Shown: positions 928 through 5,676 of the stretch, piece after piece
Layout: each line of letters begins with the position of its first letter
Numbering within the stretch: position 1 is the stretch's first letter
Assembly: GCA_003161205.1 (NCBI GenBank)
Contig: PMOU01000056.1
Span: forward strand, 1,691-7,745
Source: Actinomycetota bacterium
Lineage (GTDB): Bacteria; Actinomycetota; Actinomycetes; Streptosporangiales; Streptosporangiaceae
Direction of reading: 5' to 3'
DNA length: 6,055 nucleotides
Notes under the pieces: model-generated
Database searches by the model: none
What the model saw: the letters and a program-made list of their open reading frames with translations, nothing else
Told to the model about the DNA's origin: nothing
Translations under genes and position numbers: made by a program

Positions 928-1974
928 ATGAAGGCACTGGTATATCACGGACCCGGCCGCAAGTCCTGGGAAGACGTCCCGGATGCCGCGATCAGGGAAC
1001 CGGCCGACGTCGTGGTACGCGTCGACACGACGACCATATGCGGGACCGACCTGCACATCCTCCATGGCGACGTGGCCGCGGTAACGGACGGCCGCATCCT
1101 GGGGCACGAGGCGGTCGGCACCGTCACCGAGGTCGGCGAGGCGGTCAGCGGCTTCAGCGTCGGTGACCGCGTACTCGTCCCGGCCATCACCAAGTGCGGC
1201 CGGTGCCAGTACTGCCAGCGGGGCATGCCGTCGCACTGCCAGACCGTCGGCGGGATCGGCTGGATCTTCGGCCACCTCATCGACGGGACCCAGGCCGAGT
1301 ACGTCCGGGTTCCGTTCGCCGACACCTCGCTGTACGCGGTGCCCGACAGCGTCACGAACGAGCAGGCGATCTTCCTCGCCGACTCCCTCCCCACTGGCTA
1401 CGAGGTCGGCGTGCTCGCCGGGAACGTGCGGCCCGGCGACACGGCGGCTGTGGTGGGCGCCGGCGCGGTGGGCCTTTCGGCCATCCTCACCACCGGGCTG
1501 TGGGGCGCCTCGAAGGTCATCGCGATCGACACGAACAAGTTCCGGCTGGAAAAGGCGCTGGAATTCGGGGCCACGGACGCCGTGGAGGTCGGTCCGGGCA
1601 CCGTCGCGAATGTCATCGCGCTGACCGACGGCCTCGGCGTCGACGTCTCCATCGAAGCCGTCGGCTACCCGGAAACCCTGCTGACGGCGGCGTCCCTGGT
1701 CCGGCCGGGCGGCACCATCGCCAACATCGGGGTGCACGGGACGCCGGTCGAGCTGCCGATGCAGGACATGTGGATCCAGAACGTCACCCTGACCATGGGC
1801 CTGGTCGATACGGTCTCCATTCCCACGCTGCTCAAGATGGTCGCCAGCGGACGGATCCCGGCGGAGAAGATGGGCACGCACTCGTTCACGTTCGGGCAGA
1901 TAGACGAGGCCTATGACGTGTTCAAGAACGCGGCGGCGAACTCGGCGCTCAAGGTCGTCATCACGCCTGGCTGA
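928..1974 (+). CDS. Zinc-dependent alcohol dehydrogenase (medium-chain family), probably NAD-linked
   Basis: The protein has 348 aa, full length for the zinc-dependent medium-chain alcohol dehydrogenases. GGAG (918-921) six bases before ATG 928 supports the start. Catalytic zinc ligands are Cys38 (ICGTDLH), His60-Glu61 (GHEAVG) and Asp152 (FLADSLPTGYE). An Asp in that last position is typical of the secondary-alcohol/TDH-like branch. Structural zinc cysteines are 90, 93, 96 and 104. The Rossmann motif is GAGAVG (177-182), and Asp201 at the end of the second strand favours NAD over NADP. The expected reaction is reversible oxidation of a short-chain, probably secondary, alcohol or diol in the cytoplasm. 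The true substrate cannot be read from sequence. The convergent neighbour is an AcoR/MimR-like regulator, a family that often controls alcohol, ketone or acetoin catabolism, so it is the likely regulator. No partner enzyme is encoded nearby. Confidence 0.93.
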   Translation: MKALVYHGPGRKSWEDVPDAAIREPADVVVRVDTTTICGTDLHILHGDVAAVTDGRILGHEAVGTVTEVGEAVSGFSVGDRVLVPAITKCGRCQYCQRGMPSHCQTVGGIGWIFGHLIDGTQAEYVRVPFADTSLYAVPDSVTNEQAIFLADSLPTGYEVGVLAGNVRPGDTAAVVGAGAVGLSAILTTGLWGASKVIAIDTNKFRLEKALEFGATDAVEVGPGTVANVIALTDGLGVDVSIEAVGYPETLLTAASLVRPGGTIANIGVHGTPVELPMQDMWIQNVTLTMGLVDTVSIPTLLKMVASGRIPAEKMGTHSFTFGQIDEAYDVFKNAAANSALKVVITPG

Positions 1975-2029: not shown

Positions 2030-3904
2030 TCAAGCAATGTAGCTGATGCCGAACGCGTCGATCTTCCGGTACAGCGACGAGCGGGCGATGCCGAGCATGG
2101 CGGCGGCCTTGTAGCGATTCCCCCGGGCCTCGTACAGCGCCTGGATGATCGCGTCGCACTGCGCGGCCTCGAGCATGGACATCTTGCGCGGGCGGCGCTG
2201 GAAGCACAGCCGCGGCAGGTCCGGCGGCTGGATCTCGCCGACCGGCTTGCGGGCGATGACGTATCTCAGCACGTCCTCGAGCTCGTTGATGTTCCCCGGC
2301 CACGCGTAGCCCTCCAGGACCCGGACGACCTGCAGGCTGAGCCGCAGGGACCGGGCGCCCGCCAGCTCCTGCAGGATCGCCATCGAGATGTCGCCGATCT
2401 CATCGATCCGGTACCGGAGAGCCGGCACCCTGGTCATCTGGTGGAAGTGCCGAAGCAGTAGTCCGTAGGGTCTGGTCGCGTCGATGGCCGGGCTGTCGAT
2501 GCAGCCGACGACGCAGAGCCCGGCGTCCAGCGCGATGAGCGGCCGCAGCGATTCATCCAGACGGTGGGCCGCGACGGGAGACAGCCGGTTCAGTCCGCAC
2601 AGGAGCAGCAGCTGCGGGCGGTCCCCGGCCGACTCGGCCAGCTCGGTGACCGGGTGCGCCCCGGGTGATCCCGGCCCGTCCGGGAAGGACGCGCAGCTCA
2701 CCGCGACGACTTGCCCGTGCGGGAACGCCTGGCGGAACTGGGTGCGCACCAGTGTCTGCTTGCCCACGCCGGGCTCCCCGATGAGCAGGTGCCTGCGGCG
2801 CTGGGTGATACTCGCCGCGACCTCCTGCCTGGCCCGCAGGAACGGGGTCAGCAGTTCCTGGTTCGCGCGGATCTGCGCCTCGGCGTAGTTCCGCTGCCGG
2901 CGTGCCGGTCCCCGCAGGTCCTCGGCGTAGTCCCGGCGGATCGTCGGGGCGACGTGTGAGCCCTGCCGGCGGACCGCCTCGGGTACGGCCGCCGGGCGCC
3001 GCGGATGTGCGTCCCCGCCCGCTAGCACGCACCCGACCAGCTCTCCGGCCAGGTAGACGCCCTCCGTCACGGCCTCGGCGCAGCCGCCGGACGACAGATC
3101 CACGTGCTTGCGCCCGAACTCCTGCAACGAGAGGCTGCCCAGTGCGAGATCACTGAGCGCTCTCAGGTCAGCGGCGTCCAGCTGACGGGCCCGCGCGTTG
3201 GTGATGCCCCAGTCGCCGTCGGTGGCCAGTACCCATCCGGTCACCTGCTCACAGCAGCGGCTGAAGCGCTCCAGGATCGCCCGTGACCAGGAGCGCGGCC
3301 CTTCGGCCATGCTCCCGGCAATCCGCTGGGCCAGCATCCGCGCCGCCGCCAGCTGGAACATGGTCTCGTCCGACTCGTGGCAGATCACCACCACGGCACC
3401 GCACGCCTCGAGCTGACGCGAATCCGGGACCGGCGATGCGGCCCCGCTGATGAACGTCAGCCGGGAGTGATAGTGCTCAGCGCCGCTGATCACGACGTCA
3501 CATCGCTCGTGCTGGGCGACCGAGGAGGCGGTGGTCCCGACCACGGACTCGGCATGGCTGTAGCCGGGCACCAGCCGCACCTCATCCAGGAGCCTGGCCA
3601 GACCCTCGTCACCATCGCGGCGGGTCCGCACCACGCCGTCCGAGCCGACCAGGACCAGGGAAGCCGCCACCTTTCCGGCCAGCTTGAAGAAGTCGTCGAA
3701 CGCGTCCTCGGCGGCGGCGTGGAGCGGCGAGCCGTCATCGTGACCCGCGAAGGGAGCGGTGATCCGGTCGGGATCCACCTGGTCCCGGCGTGAGCGCTGC
3801 CACGAGGCCAGCACCTCAGGGCGGACGACGTTCCCCGGTTCCGGACACGCCCCGCAAGCCAGGAAAGAACGCCGGGCCGCTTCGAGATCTACAGCCCTGG
3901 ACAT
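2030..3904 (-). CDS. GAF/AAA+/Fis-type transcriptional regulator with degenerate sigma54-activator domain
   Basis: This 624-aa protein is related to AcoR/MimR-type activators. RPEVLASWQRSRR (28-40) is the family's N-terminal signature. A GAF-like sensor spans about 60-200 (VVGTTASS 121-128, GAEHYHS 141-147), followed by a second, possibly PAS-like, segment at about 205-300. The AAA+ core spans about 345-555 and the Fis-type HTH about 575-620 (GNRYKAAAMLGIARSSLYRK). Walker A is present (GEPGVGKQT, Lys382). The Walker B Asp-Glu is replaced by Cys436-Gly437. Only about 28 residues separate VSCASFP (402-408) from Walker B, so the GAFTGA loop is missing. The sensor II Arg of WPGNVREL is Asn540. 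ATP hydrolysis and sigma54 remodelling are therefore unlikely; this fits actinobacteria, which lack sigma54. The ATG at 3904 has only a weak ribosome binding site; a short upstream ORF may supply ribosomes. It probably controls the convergent dehydrogenase (inference). Confidence 0.88.
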   Translation of the reverse strand: MSRAVDLEAARRSFLACGACPEPGNVVRPEVLASWQRSRRDQVDPDRITAPFAGHDDGSPLHAAAEDAFDDFFKLAGKVAASLVLVGSDGVVRTRRDGDEGLARLLDEVRLVPGYSHAESVVGTTASSVAQHERCDVVISGAEHYHSRLTFISGAASPVPDSRQLEACGAVVVICHESDETMFQLAAARMLAQRIAGSMAEGPRSWSRAILERFSRCCEQVTGWVLATDGDWGITNARARQLDAADLRALSDLALGSLSLQEFGRKHVDLSSGGCAEAVTEGVYLAGELVGCVLAGGDAHPRRPAAVPEAVRRQGSHVAPTIRRDYAEDLRGPARRQRNYAEAQIRANQELLTPFLRARQEVAASITQRRRHLLIGEPGVGKQTLVRTQFRQAFPHGQVVAVSCASFPDGPGSPGAHPVTELAESAGDRPQLLLLCGLNRLSPVAAHRLDESLRPLIALDAGLCVVGCIDSPAIDATRPYGLLLRHFHQMTRVPALRYRIDEIGDISMAILQELAGARSLRLSLQVVRVLEGYAWPGNINELEDVLRYVIARKPVGEIQPPDLPRLCFQRRPRKMSMLEAAQCDAIIQALYEARGNRYKAAAMLGIARSSLYRKIDAFGISYIA

Positions 3905-4086: not shown

Positions 4087-4404
4087 ATGATGCCTTCGCC
4101 CTCCGCTTCCGGTGGCGGCCAGCCCGTCTTGGCGTCGACGCCGCGAGAGATCCGCGCCGCGTTGAGCGGCGAGGAGATCGCCCATTTCGATCGCGAGTAC
4201 CGGGATGTGATGGCGGATGCCGCGGAATCTCTCGACCTCTCGGACGTGGTGTCGATGCTGAGACGCTGGCAGCGCGTGGCCTGGTCCACCCAGGATGACC
4301 CGGATGCACACCGGCACATGCTGGCTCGGGCGGACGAGCTGAACGCAGGCGAGGATGTTCCTACCGAGTCGTGGCGGGCGACGAAGGCCCGGCTGAGCCT
4401 GTAG
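4087..4404 (+). CDS. DUF6247-like protein, probable antitoxin of a TA pair
   Basis: A 105-aa acidic, mostly helical protein. After a low-complexity Ser/Pro/Gly start (residues 1-12), the segment from STPREIRAAL through EEIAHFDREYRDVMADA, then MLRRWQRVAWSTQDDPDAH, resembles the DUF6247 family of actinobacteria: a proline-led helix, an F-x-x-EY motif and a tryptophan-containing helix. I know that family as the small upstream partner of RelE-like proteins, so antitoxin is the likely role. No classical DNA-binding motif is obvious. ATG 4087 or the adjacent ATG 4090 could be the start; there is no Shine-Dalgarno sequence and a -10 box lies 6 bases away, so a leaderless start at 4087 is preferred. 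The TAG stop abuts the GTG of the next gene, showing a two-gene operon. The family assignment is from recall, not a search. Confidence 0.75.
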   Translation: MMPSPSASGGGQPVLASTPREIRAALSGEEIAHFDREYRDVMADAAESLDLSDVVSMLRRWQRVAWSTQDDPDAHRHMLARADELNAGEDVPTESWRATKARLSL

Positions 4405-4659
4405 GTGTATGCGGTCGAATCGGAGCACCACGCTCTCGAACAGGTCGCGGCGTTGCCTGCGGAGGCACTCCCCTACTATGCCGAGCTGATGACGGTCCTC
4501 GAAACTGCACCATGGGGCGGCGAACCCTATGACCGGCAGCGGCCCGATGGGAACATGCGCACGTATGTCTTCGGAAAGCACGACCAAGGCATGGTGATCT
4601 ACCTGGTCCTCGAAGATCAGCGGCGAGTCGTCGTCCTACGCGTCTTGTGGGCCGGCTAA
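4405..4659 (+). CDS. RelE/ParE-like toxin of a TA pair
   Basis: An 84-aa protein with the RelE/ParE pattern: an N-terminal strand, a helix around residues 7-16 (HHALEQVAALP), a second helix around 20-33 (ALPYYAELMTVLE), then APWGGEPYD and a three-strand sheet with MRTYVFG, MVIYLVLEDQRR and VVVLRVLWAG. The combination P-x-x-MR-x-FG with VIYLVLEDQ and a closing Trp is typical of small actinobacterial RelE-fold toxins next to DUF6247 genes. RelE-fold toxins usually cleave mRNA on the ribosome or, in the ParE branch, poison gyrase. The target here is unknown. The GTG start directly follows the upstream TAG with no spacer, so it is probably translated by re-initiation, keeping toxin below antitoxin. 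A terminator lies 2 bases after the stop. Confidence 0.8.
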   Translation: MYAVESEHHALEQVAALPAEALPYYAELMTVLETAPWGGEPYDRQRPDGNMRTYVFGKHDQGMVIYLVLEDQRRVVVLRVLWAG

Positions 4660-4695: not shown

Positions 4696-4874
4696 CTATT
4701 CGAGGTCGGACAGGTCTAGCGCGAAGCGGTAGCGGACGTGGGCCCGCTCAAGGCCGCGGTGACCGGTGAGGATCACGGCACGTCACGGATGATCCTGACG
4801 CCCTTCTTCGGGCGAGCTTGCAGCAGGTTCACCATGACCCGCTTGCCGGTCAGCTCCTCCAGCGATGTCGAGGA
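4696..4874 (-). pseudogene. Coding-like remnant of unknown family with a frame break
   Basis: On the minus strand 4874-4776 reads SSTSLEELTGKRVMVNL and on to KKGVRIIRDVP, ending at TGA (4775-4773). In a shifted frame 4776-4699 reads VILTGHRGLERAHVRYRF followed by ALDLSDLE, ending at TAG (4698-4696). Both pieces have the composition and hydrophobic pattern of real protein and join tail to head across a frame change, which suggests the decayed 3' end of one gene. I do not recognise the family. No intact gene covers 4689-5041; this piece, a repeat and the regulator fragment are all I see there. Confidence 0.3.
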
Positions 4875-4906
4875 GGAGCCGGCGGATCCGATCGCGGGGT
4901 GTCGGC
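4862..4906 (+). repeat. 45-bp imperfect repeat, first copy (ECF42-promoter-like)
   Basis: Bases 4862-4906 align without gaps to 5840-5884 at 35 of 45 positions by my count. Both begin with GCGATGTCGAGGA and share CCGGCGG, TCCGA and CGGGGTG at the same spacing. This copy has TGTCGA (4866-4871), 17 bases, then CGAT (4889-4892). No plus-strand gene follows it, so if it was a promoter it is now orphaned. The regulator-derived fragment begins one base after the repeat. Confidence 0.5.
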
Positions 4907-4907
4907 A

Positions 4908-5000
4908 GCGGCGAGCCGTGATCGTGACCCGCGAAGAGGGCGGCCATTCGGTCGGGAGCCACCTGATGCCGGCGGGAGCGTTCCCACGAAGCCAGAGCCT
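4908..5000 (-). pseudogene. Fragment of a second copy of the AcoR/MimR-like regulator (N-terminal region)
   Basis: These 93 bases align without gaps to 3724-3816 of the intact regulator at 78 of 93 positions by my count (84%). The minus-strand translation LASWERSRRHQV, then PDRMAALFAGHDHGSP, matches regulator residues 30-60 at 22 of 31 positions. The similarity stops abruptly at both ends. Downstream in the same frame there is no GAF domain, only a low-complexity stretch reaching a stop near 4783, and the upstream sequence runs into the vapC coding region. It is therefore a non-functional relic of a paralogous or transferred regulator gene. Substitutions in this piece are scattered rather than strictly third-position, as expected after loss of selection. 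Confidence 0.75.
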
Positions 5001-5041
5001 GCAGCGATCCGTGCGGCCGTGGCGCCTCAATCCGGCCGCCC

Positions 5042-5458
5042 TCAGGGAAGCGGCTGCACCGTAATGTTCGGATAAGGCGCGGCAAGCGAGGCGAGGTCAT
5101 CAGGATCGCCAGTCAGCACGACGCCGCCGCCGGATTCCACGGCCGCCGCGATCACGTGCGCGTCGGCCAGGTAACGAGAGTCCGCCTTCGCCCCGGTAAG
5201 CACCCCGCCAACCAAGCGCGCCAGCGGGCGGTCGGTGTCACGGACCCGGATCCCCGTCTCGCGTGCCAGACAGGCGTCTACCAGCTGGTTGCGGCCGGCA
5301 CCACGATAAAGTTCCGCGAGGATGACCGCCGGGACGATCACGTCTCGGTGCATGAGAGCGGCGGCTCGCATAGCGGCCCTGACTTCCTCTTGCCGCCTGG
5401 AGGGTCGGCCGCCTAGCGTGGCCAGCGCCTCGGAGTCGAGGATGAGCGCGCGGCTCAT
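5042..5458 (-). CDS. vapC: VapC-type PIN-domain toxin (ribonuclease)
   Basis: A 138-aa PIN-domain protein, normal length for VapC. VapC toxins are Mg2+-dependent endoribonucleases that cut tRNA or rRNA and stop translation. Acidic active-site residues are in place: Asp8 (LILDSEAL), Glu49 (VILAELYRG), Asp99 (YLADAHVIAAA) and Asp118 (VVLTGDPDDLASLA; Asp121 is an alternative). It ends with a short strand, NITVQPLP. ATG at 5458-5456 overlaps the antitoxin stop as ATGA, so translation is coupled to the upstream vapB gene. The 3' end runs up to the decayed region holding the regulator relic. Its specific RNA target cannot be predicted. All catalytic residues are present, so it should be active unless neutralised. 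Confidence 0.92.
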   Translation of the reverse strand: MSRALILDSEALATLGGRPSRRQEEVRAAMRAAALMHRDVIVPAVILAELYRGAGRNQLVDACLARETGIRVRDTDRPLARLVGGVLTGAKADSRYLADAHVIAAAVESGGGVVLTGDPDDLASLAAPYPNITVQPLP

Positions 5459-5676
5459 AGCAGCTCGGTGTACTTCGCGACGAGCGCCTCGTCAACTGGT
5501 CCGTACTTGGCATCAAGCGAGTCGAGCATGTCGGTCACCAGGCGGTTCCGCCGACGCCGCTCGACCTCGGCCCGGATAGCCTCGTTCACCTGCCCGGACA
5601 GCGCCTCGTCGGCGGCCTCAAGCTCCGCGACAAGATCCTCGTCGAGCGAGACGGAGACCTTCCGCTTTGTGGTCAT
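5455..5676 (-). CDS. vapB: VapB-type ribbon-helix-helix antitoxin
   Basis: A 73-aa protein. The N-terminal half (residues 4-40) is a ribbon-helix-helix DNA-binding domain: strand KRKVSVSL, helix DEDLVAELEAA, then a second helix ALSGQVNEAIRAEVERRRR. The C-terminal part (MLDSLDAKYGPVDEALVAKYTELL, given here as residues 50-73) is the likely toxin-wrapping tail. It should neutralise the adjacent VapC and repress the operon. ATG 5676-5674 was chosen because upstream codons in the frame (Val-Ile-Pro-Trp) include no start codon and family members begin at this MTTKRKV position. There is no well-spaced Shine-Dalgarno sequence; a -10 box 6 bases upstream suggests leaderless translation. The stop overlaps the vapC start by 4 bases. 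Confidence 0.9.
   Translation of the reverse strand: MTTKRKVSVSLDEDLVAELEAADEALSGQVNEAIRAEVERRRRNRLVTDMLDSLDAKYGPVDEALVAKYTELL

Follow-up and report, generated by a model that had tools for sequence, protein, structure and literature searches.

Many actinobacterial proteins are labelled 'sigma-54-dependent', yet nearly all sampled actinomycete genomes are without sigma54. The 6,055-nucleotide stretch analysed here (the window; positions 1,691 to 7,745 of contig PMOU01000056.1, assembly GCA_003161205.1, from an Actinomycetota bacterium of the Streptosporangiaceae) carries on its minus strand a gene (2030-3904) identified by open reading frame (ORF), Pfam and structure model that encodes a 624-amino-acid (aa) regulator with a GAF/PAS-like sensor, a degenerate AAA+ domain and a Fis-type helix-turn-helix (HTH). 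We consider it probable that this relative of the bacterial enhancer-binding proteins (bEBPs) works like DhaR, activating the adjacent alcohol dehydrogenase (ADH) gene without sigma54, and that its AAA+ domain serves as a non-hydrolysing assembly module. The proposal is built on features read from sequence, namely the pattern of lost and retained AAA+ motifs, the linkage to the ADH gene, inverted repeats (dyads) of regular spacing upstream of that gene, and the lack of an rpoN match in the genomes that carry an orthologue.

The domains of the regulator were placed by Pfam and by a structure model (predicted template modelling score, pTM, 0.39; mean predicted local distance difference test, pLDDT, 76). 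The sensor half (residues 27-299; 3008-3826, minus strand, as for all features of this gene) matches the E. coli DhaR sensor, whose domains we take to be GAF plus PAS, the resemblance being one of fold found by structure comparison of the model. The GAF sensor ascribed to the protein in a preliminary description, made from the letters of the sequence, is thus visible by fold and is also found in relatives, whereas Pfam returns no GAF in the window protein itself at E <= 1. The AAA+ domain and lid (residues 336-568; 2201-2899) are recognized by Pfam AAA_lid_14 (36.4 bits, cut-off 27), the structure model and Foldseek, in which bEBP AAA+ domains rank high; the Sigma54_activat family scores below its gathering score (14.7 bits, cut-off 20.2). 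VIA-align placed clamp loaders and p97 on top rather than bEBPs, a ranking that was not used for class membership. The Fis-type HTH (residues 577-617; 2054-2176), also present in the structure model, was correctly recognized at the outset and scores well above its cut-off (HTH_8, 40.5 bits, cut-off 22).

The motif slots of the AAA+ domain were located by alignment with E. coli PspF, NtrC, TyrR and DhaR (with the duplicate entry L008 and one piece of L004 in a second frame left out), which confirmed the register, and conservation was counted in the clade of close homologues, of which 120 matches were listed of 240 found, the window protein's own entry being one of the 120. The Walker A motif GEPGVGK (residues 376-382; 2759-2779) is conserved, with K382 kept in 119/120 and one gap. 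In the place of the GAFTGA insert stands a short Gly/Pro loop, DGPGSPGAH (residues 409-417; 2654-2680), and the Walker B strand reads LLLL-C436-G437 (2594-2611), where the catalytic Asp-Glu is gone; no listed sequence has the acidic pair at these two residues, and an acid at 437 alone occurs in eight. The sensor II Arg is replaced by N540, within WPGNINEL (2285-2287), a position held by Ser in 87 and Asn in 33 of the 120 sequences and by a basic residue in none. Two further positions are retained: D470 in the sensor I slot (2495-2497; 119/120), and R485 (2450-2452; 120/120), which corresponds to the R168 arginine finger of PspF by an ungapped hand count from the LPPLR motif, MAFFT placing a gap there. 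Each of these readings (the Walker A Lys, Cys436-Gly437, the Gly/Pro loop and Asn540) had been made directly from the translation, and the alignment to NtrC that was proposed as a check left them as first stated.

Candidates for a displaced motif were considered and rejected. Neither an hhhhDE (h, hydrophobic) nor a GAFTGA appears elsewhere in the domain on the alignment, and LDE 449-451, although invariant in the clade (D450 and E451 120/120), falls in the helix that follows the Walker B strand and is not shared by the other groups. Because the losses are fixed across the 120 listed sequences, they are not attributable to chance or a sequencing slip, and together with the strong conservation of the P-loop they indicate a domain that is maintained and altered, not decaying. 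Retention of the P-loop suggests that the domain probably binds nucleotide, and its combination with R485 and the missing Walker B acid fits nucleotide binding without turnover, making ATP binding without hydrolysis a plausible property of this protein.

The same degeneration extends beyond the clade. Two homologue searches, the second started from a distant relative, found 240 and 412 proteins, and GAFTGA is absent from all 240 homologues listed from them (120 from each). An alignment of three groups compared 31 of the 120 close homologues (group A, one of every four kept), 120 proteins of group B and 25 of group C, the top-scoring part of a class-wide genome sample, without L030, L032, L034 and L037 (no AAA+ part), L005 (an ordinary bEBP) and L001-L004; hhhhDE at Walker B occurs in 0 of 31, 120 and 25. 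Loss of Walker B and GAFTGA thus appears family-wide. The sensor II Arg is present in 70/120 and 12/25 of the two distant groups and lost throughout only in the window protein's clade, R485 is not kept in group B, and the Walker A Lys has become Arg in 14/25 of the most mixed group. Since roughly half of the proteins in the distant groups retain the sensor II Arg and 14 have Arg at Walker A, the losses look stepwise, and the clade appears to have its own combination in which the P-loop, Asp470 and Arg485 are kept and sensor II is lost. A class-wide search matched the family in 49/296 genomes at E <= 1e-10, a lower bound in that up to four candidates were scored per genome, and with some matches N-terminal only; the family therefore appears to be large among actinomycetes.

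The RpoN DNA-binding domain was found in none of the 29 genomes carrying an orthologue of the regulator, nor in any of 15 genomes that combine the family dyad described below with a distant member of the family (within 1 kb of each other in 14/15), while E. coli, B. subtilis, Caulobacter and Bacteroides controls were positive. This agrees with the earlier view that the protein is not a sigma54 activator. The accompanying statement that Actinobacteria have no sigma54 is nearly true, but not strictly: the domain exceeded its cut-off in 2/296 genomes of the class (G229 and G287), hits explained either by contamination or by an occasional sigma54 in the class. The idea of a sigma54 promoter in front of the ADH gene was likewise rejected: searches for a -24/-12 element gave 0 hits in the window with 2 mismatches allowed (chance expectation 1.66) and 0 in the regions upstream of 40 ADH genes with 10 of 11 positions required.

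The probable target gene (928-1974, plus strand) encodes a 348-aa zinc alcohol dehydrogenase, assigned by Pfam, structural relatives and linkage; its nearest solved relatives are zinc ADHs, followed by secondary-alcohol (isopropanol) dehydrogenases. Orthologues of the regulator were surveyed in 297 genomes sampled from the family of an Actinomycetospora genome, the Pseudonocardiaceae, keeping matches at E <= 1e-60, and were present in 29. A zinc ADH 88-93% identical to that of the window adjoins the regulator in 28 of these 29, in convergent (as in the window), divergent (L075) or tandem order; in the exception, G469, the two genes lie about 1.9 Mb apart. The regulator orthologues of two loci, L079 (G004) and L083 (G350), run over more than one reading frame, through sequencing errors or because the genes are broken; the ADH gene and both of the dyads described below (0 mismatches) look intact there. 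Ten further loci (L100-L109) carry the same dehydrogenase, 83-91% identical, without a close regulator orthologue, and the dyad near -42 is kept in eight of them.

Upstream of the ADH gene, on the plus strand, lie a distal operator candidate TGTCCCGGATCCGGGTCA (767-784; GTCCC-N6-GGGAC with 1 mismatch), a proximal operator-like dyad GACCGATTCTGGCAC (821-835; 3 mismatches to GTCCC-N5-GGGAC) and a -10-like hexamer TAGCGT (859-864). Among 29 linked loci, window included, the distal dyad occurs with <=1 mismatch in 27 (mean 0.76 and maximum 4/29 in shuffled sequences), and the best-fit proximal dyad (0-3 mismatches) starts 53 or 54 nt after it in 29/29, being a perfect GTCCC-N5-GGGAC in part of the clade. 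A TA[GC][CG]GT hexamer begins 90-92 nt after the start of the distal dyad in 28 loci, the divergent L075 being without it. Taking the hexamer as the -10 element places the dyad centres at about -94.5 and -42, a geometry that fits activation at a sigma70-type promoter. Since the distance between the dyads is the same in the three gene orders, the sites appear to be part of the ADH promoter, and in G469 both remain with the ADH gene (L077). The exact 18-bp distal dyad is present in 0-6 copies per genome in 28 genomes.

Related sites were identified across the class. The perfect dyad GTCTCA-N3-TGAGAC occurs in 34 copies in 296 class genomes; a family gene lies within 300 bp of 17 of them and within 1 kb of 19, and such 1-kb zones make up about 0.015% of the sequence, assuming a mean genome size of 5 Mb. 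Whether a family gene lies within 2 kb of a dyad was judged with a profile built from proteins of the regulator family (E <= 1e-5); the 72 genes behind the 1-kb count come from the class-wide search, some of whose matches are N-terminal only, and not all need belong to the family. TAnnnT is the -10 pattern of actinomycetes, and among the 19 family-near dyads it follows six times at 21-23 nt and thirteen times at 32-33 nt (background 0.0014 per position), two spacings one helical turn apart that would place dyad centres near -42 and -52. Near distant family members, a dyad with TAnnnT 21-23 nt downstream occurs six times in 29 loci, with 0.0 expected from shuffles keeping base composition only. 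Nine loci with the 32-33 spacing are largely one syntenic group, in which the regulator is divergent from an amidohydrolase-like gene (start readable in at least six of the nine; confirmed by Pfam in L118); as the sites were treated as independent, the P values for spacing are descriptive only. Genes downstream of the dyads include an amidohydrolase beside a family gene; at dyads >2 kb from any family gene they include a P450, a zinc ADH and a Methane/Phenol/Alkene hydroxylase (the last in G145). At position 1998 of L128, with no family gene within 2 kb, a GTCTCA-N3-TGAGAC dyad has TAnnnT 22 nt off on both strands and adjoins an ORF that is TetR-like by eye. Operator and promoter geometry for the actinomycete family was not found in the literature covered, where the reach into subscription journals and into searches by motif letters was small.

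Positions near -42, -52 and -94.5 are those of class II and class III activators and are used by ordinary activators. Together with the lack of sigma54, sites near -42, -52 and -94 suggest ordinary activation at a housekeeping-type promoter. In the mechanism that we favour, the sensor half would detect a small-molecule ligand, probably one of the alcohols, aldehydes or ketones, and the Fis-type HTH would bind the inverted repeats that precede the ADH gene near -42 and -94.5, separated by about five turns of DNA and facing the same side of the helix. The bound regulator would recruit RNA polymerase with a housekeeping-type sigma factor. Its AAA+ domain, lacking the parts for ATP hydrolysis or sigma54 contact, would act as an assembly or switch module, and the placing of the two operators, five turns from each other on a single face, suggests that it may couple two operator-bound dimers. 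Binding by the window protein, activation, the ligand, nucleotide binding and the identity of the sigma factor are what we infer here. The preliminary description held that such a protein must activate another sigma factor or repress; the exclusion of sigma54 stands, and the alternative it left is sharpened by the candidate operators near -42, -52 and -94.5. On a broader reading, which we advance tentatively as somewhat short of an even prospect, an actinomycete lineage of sigma54 activators would have turned into a large class of activators for housekeeping sigma factors with a shared operator code at about -42, -52 and -94 (GTCTCA-N3-TGAGAC with the variants GTCCC-N5/6-GGGAC, on one helix face), its AAA+ domain being a nucleotide-gated, non-hydrolysing clamp between operator-bound dimers, and would govern the use of short-chain alkanes, ketones and alcohols.

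Several observations weigh against the regulator being an activator that works through both sites. The proximal dyad of the window itself is poor, with its 3 mismatches, and a scan for sigma70 promoter consensus in the window gave 0 matches (shuffles 0.1); start sites are deduced from the -10-like hexamer. The distal dyad is found in 28/30 loci with an orthologue vs 1/10 without (Fisher p 1.9e-6, not corrected for phylogeny), and relatedness among the sequences makes P values come out too small. One genome without a close orthologue, G580 (L101), carries a correctly spaced distal dyad, and the proximal dyads kept in eight of the ten such loci are followed by a -10-like TAnnnT 21-23 nt on, suggesting that a paralogue may bind there; these ten genomes hold 4-13 matching pieces each, a count of pieces exceeding that of genes. 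In 5/28 regions a family-type dyad also precedes the regulator gene, by 52-92 nt (L070, L074, L076 and L078, the G469 regulator, at 52-64 nt; the shared divergent region in L075), and the window has none there; the regulator may thus control its own gene in some genomes, and candidate targets are not limited to the dehydrogenase. In the class sample, a perfect dyad is found within 1 kb of only 16/72 genes, and 15/34 perfect dyads lie more than 2 kb from any family gene, roughly the yield of the reversed control pattern (13 genomes, one each); at these remote dyads four TAnnnT hits fall at 21-23 nt and none at 32-33 nt.

The strongest competitor, which we rate as possible though clearly less probable than the two-site activator, is that the regulator reads only the distal GTCCC-N6-GGGAC and acts jointly with a paralogue or another activator at -42. 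The distal site tracks the regulator in the comparison above, the proximal site persists in 8/10 loci lacking the orthologue, and the dyad spacers differ by 1 bp; the half-sites are nevertheless alike (GTCCC), the inter-site distance is rigid, and the proximal site is perfect in part of the clade. The proximal site is accordingly older and may be shared with paralogues. Repression is unlikely: a protein at the -35 region and upstream would block polymerase until ligand is sensed, and the proximal dyad does overlap the place of the -35 region, while the E. coli record annotates TyrR and DhaR as dual regulators, but a distal site at about -94.5 is hard to fit with simple repression, steric block would be weaker at the family sites one turn further up at about -52, and the scan gave no consensus -35, a small point given 0.1 expected. 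That the protein is an ordinary sigma54 activator, its motifs having been misread or being located elsewhere, is scarcely credible; source databases do name relatives 'sigma-54 dependent transcriptional regulator', against which stand the motif losses, the orthologue genomes without an rpoN match and the lack of a -24/-12 promoter at the target.

An activator acting without sigma54 has precedents among bEBP relatives with a broken GAFTGA, since DhaR, TyrR and HupR are reported as sigma70-dependent (PMC3162934). The mode of action of such proteins, earlier called poorly described, is so for the actinobacterial family within the reach of the literature searches; sigma54-independent relatives were known before, and the likely target, candidate operators and putative promoter geometry of the actinomycete family appear to be the new part. 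E. coli DhaR, which regulates dihydroxyacetone kinase genes and is among the proteins reported there as sigma70-dependent, is like the window protein in its sensor fold, degenerate AAA+ domain and lost GAFTGA; the window regulator differs in being actinobacterial, in its target, in a shorter GAFTGA region and in its putative operators near -42 and -94.5. Its score of 101.3 bits against the NCBIfam DhaR equivalog NF008485 is far under the cut-off of 551, so that it is not filed as DhaR itself, and neither DhaK nor DhaL was among the seven window ORFs scanned, no search aimed at them having been made. The broken GAFTGA is shared with TyrR and reportedly with HupR (PMC3162934); on the alignment TyrR keeps the Walker B Asp-Glu and the sensor II Arg, both of which the window protein has lost. 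With NtrC and PspF it shares domain order, AAA+ fold, lid and Fis HTH, but not GAFTGA, the Walker B Asp-Glu or the sensor II Arg, and its orthologue genomes have no rpoN match.

In Rhodococcus BCP1, a palindrome covers the -35 region of prmA, whose start is mapped, with a 'Fis family' regulator gene adjacent (PMC4428276), and the site as described there fits the family pattern in position. The BCP1 prm and MimR regulators are of AcoR/Fis type and lie beside hydrocarbon monooxygenases, a description that suggests kinship with the window family, and in G145 the family dyad is just upstream of the Methane/Phenol/Alkene hydroxylase gene, about 9 kb from a family gene. If the activator reading is true, the family gains a binding motif, a promoter geometry and likely targets, the regulons of its members become predictable, and the purpose of a dead AAA+ motor becomes addressable on short intergenic DNA; some members are linked to alcohol, monooxygenase and amidohydrolase genes of use for biosensors.

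The remainder of the window includes, on the plus strand, the 3' part of an EgtD-like histidine methyltransferase gene (1-591; Pfam, NCBIfam) and, at 4087-4659, genes for a DUF6247 protein (Pfam) and then an 84-aa protein without Pfam match. A CcdA-like antitoxin and PIN-domain protein pair (Pfam) is encoded on the minus strand (5042-5676). Positions 4907-4995 copy 3723-3811, 89 bp at 85% identity to the 5' coding part of the regulator gene, and a minus-strand ORF at 4783-5100 reads like the regulator N-terminus; the copy appears to be the relic of a duplicated regulator beside the toxin-antitoxin-like genes.
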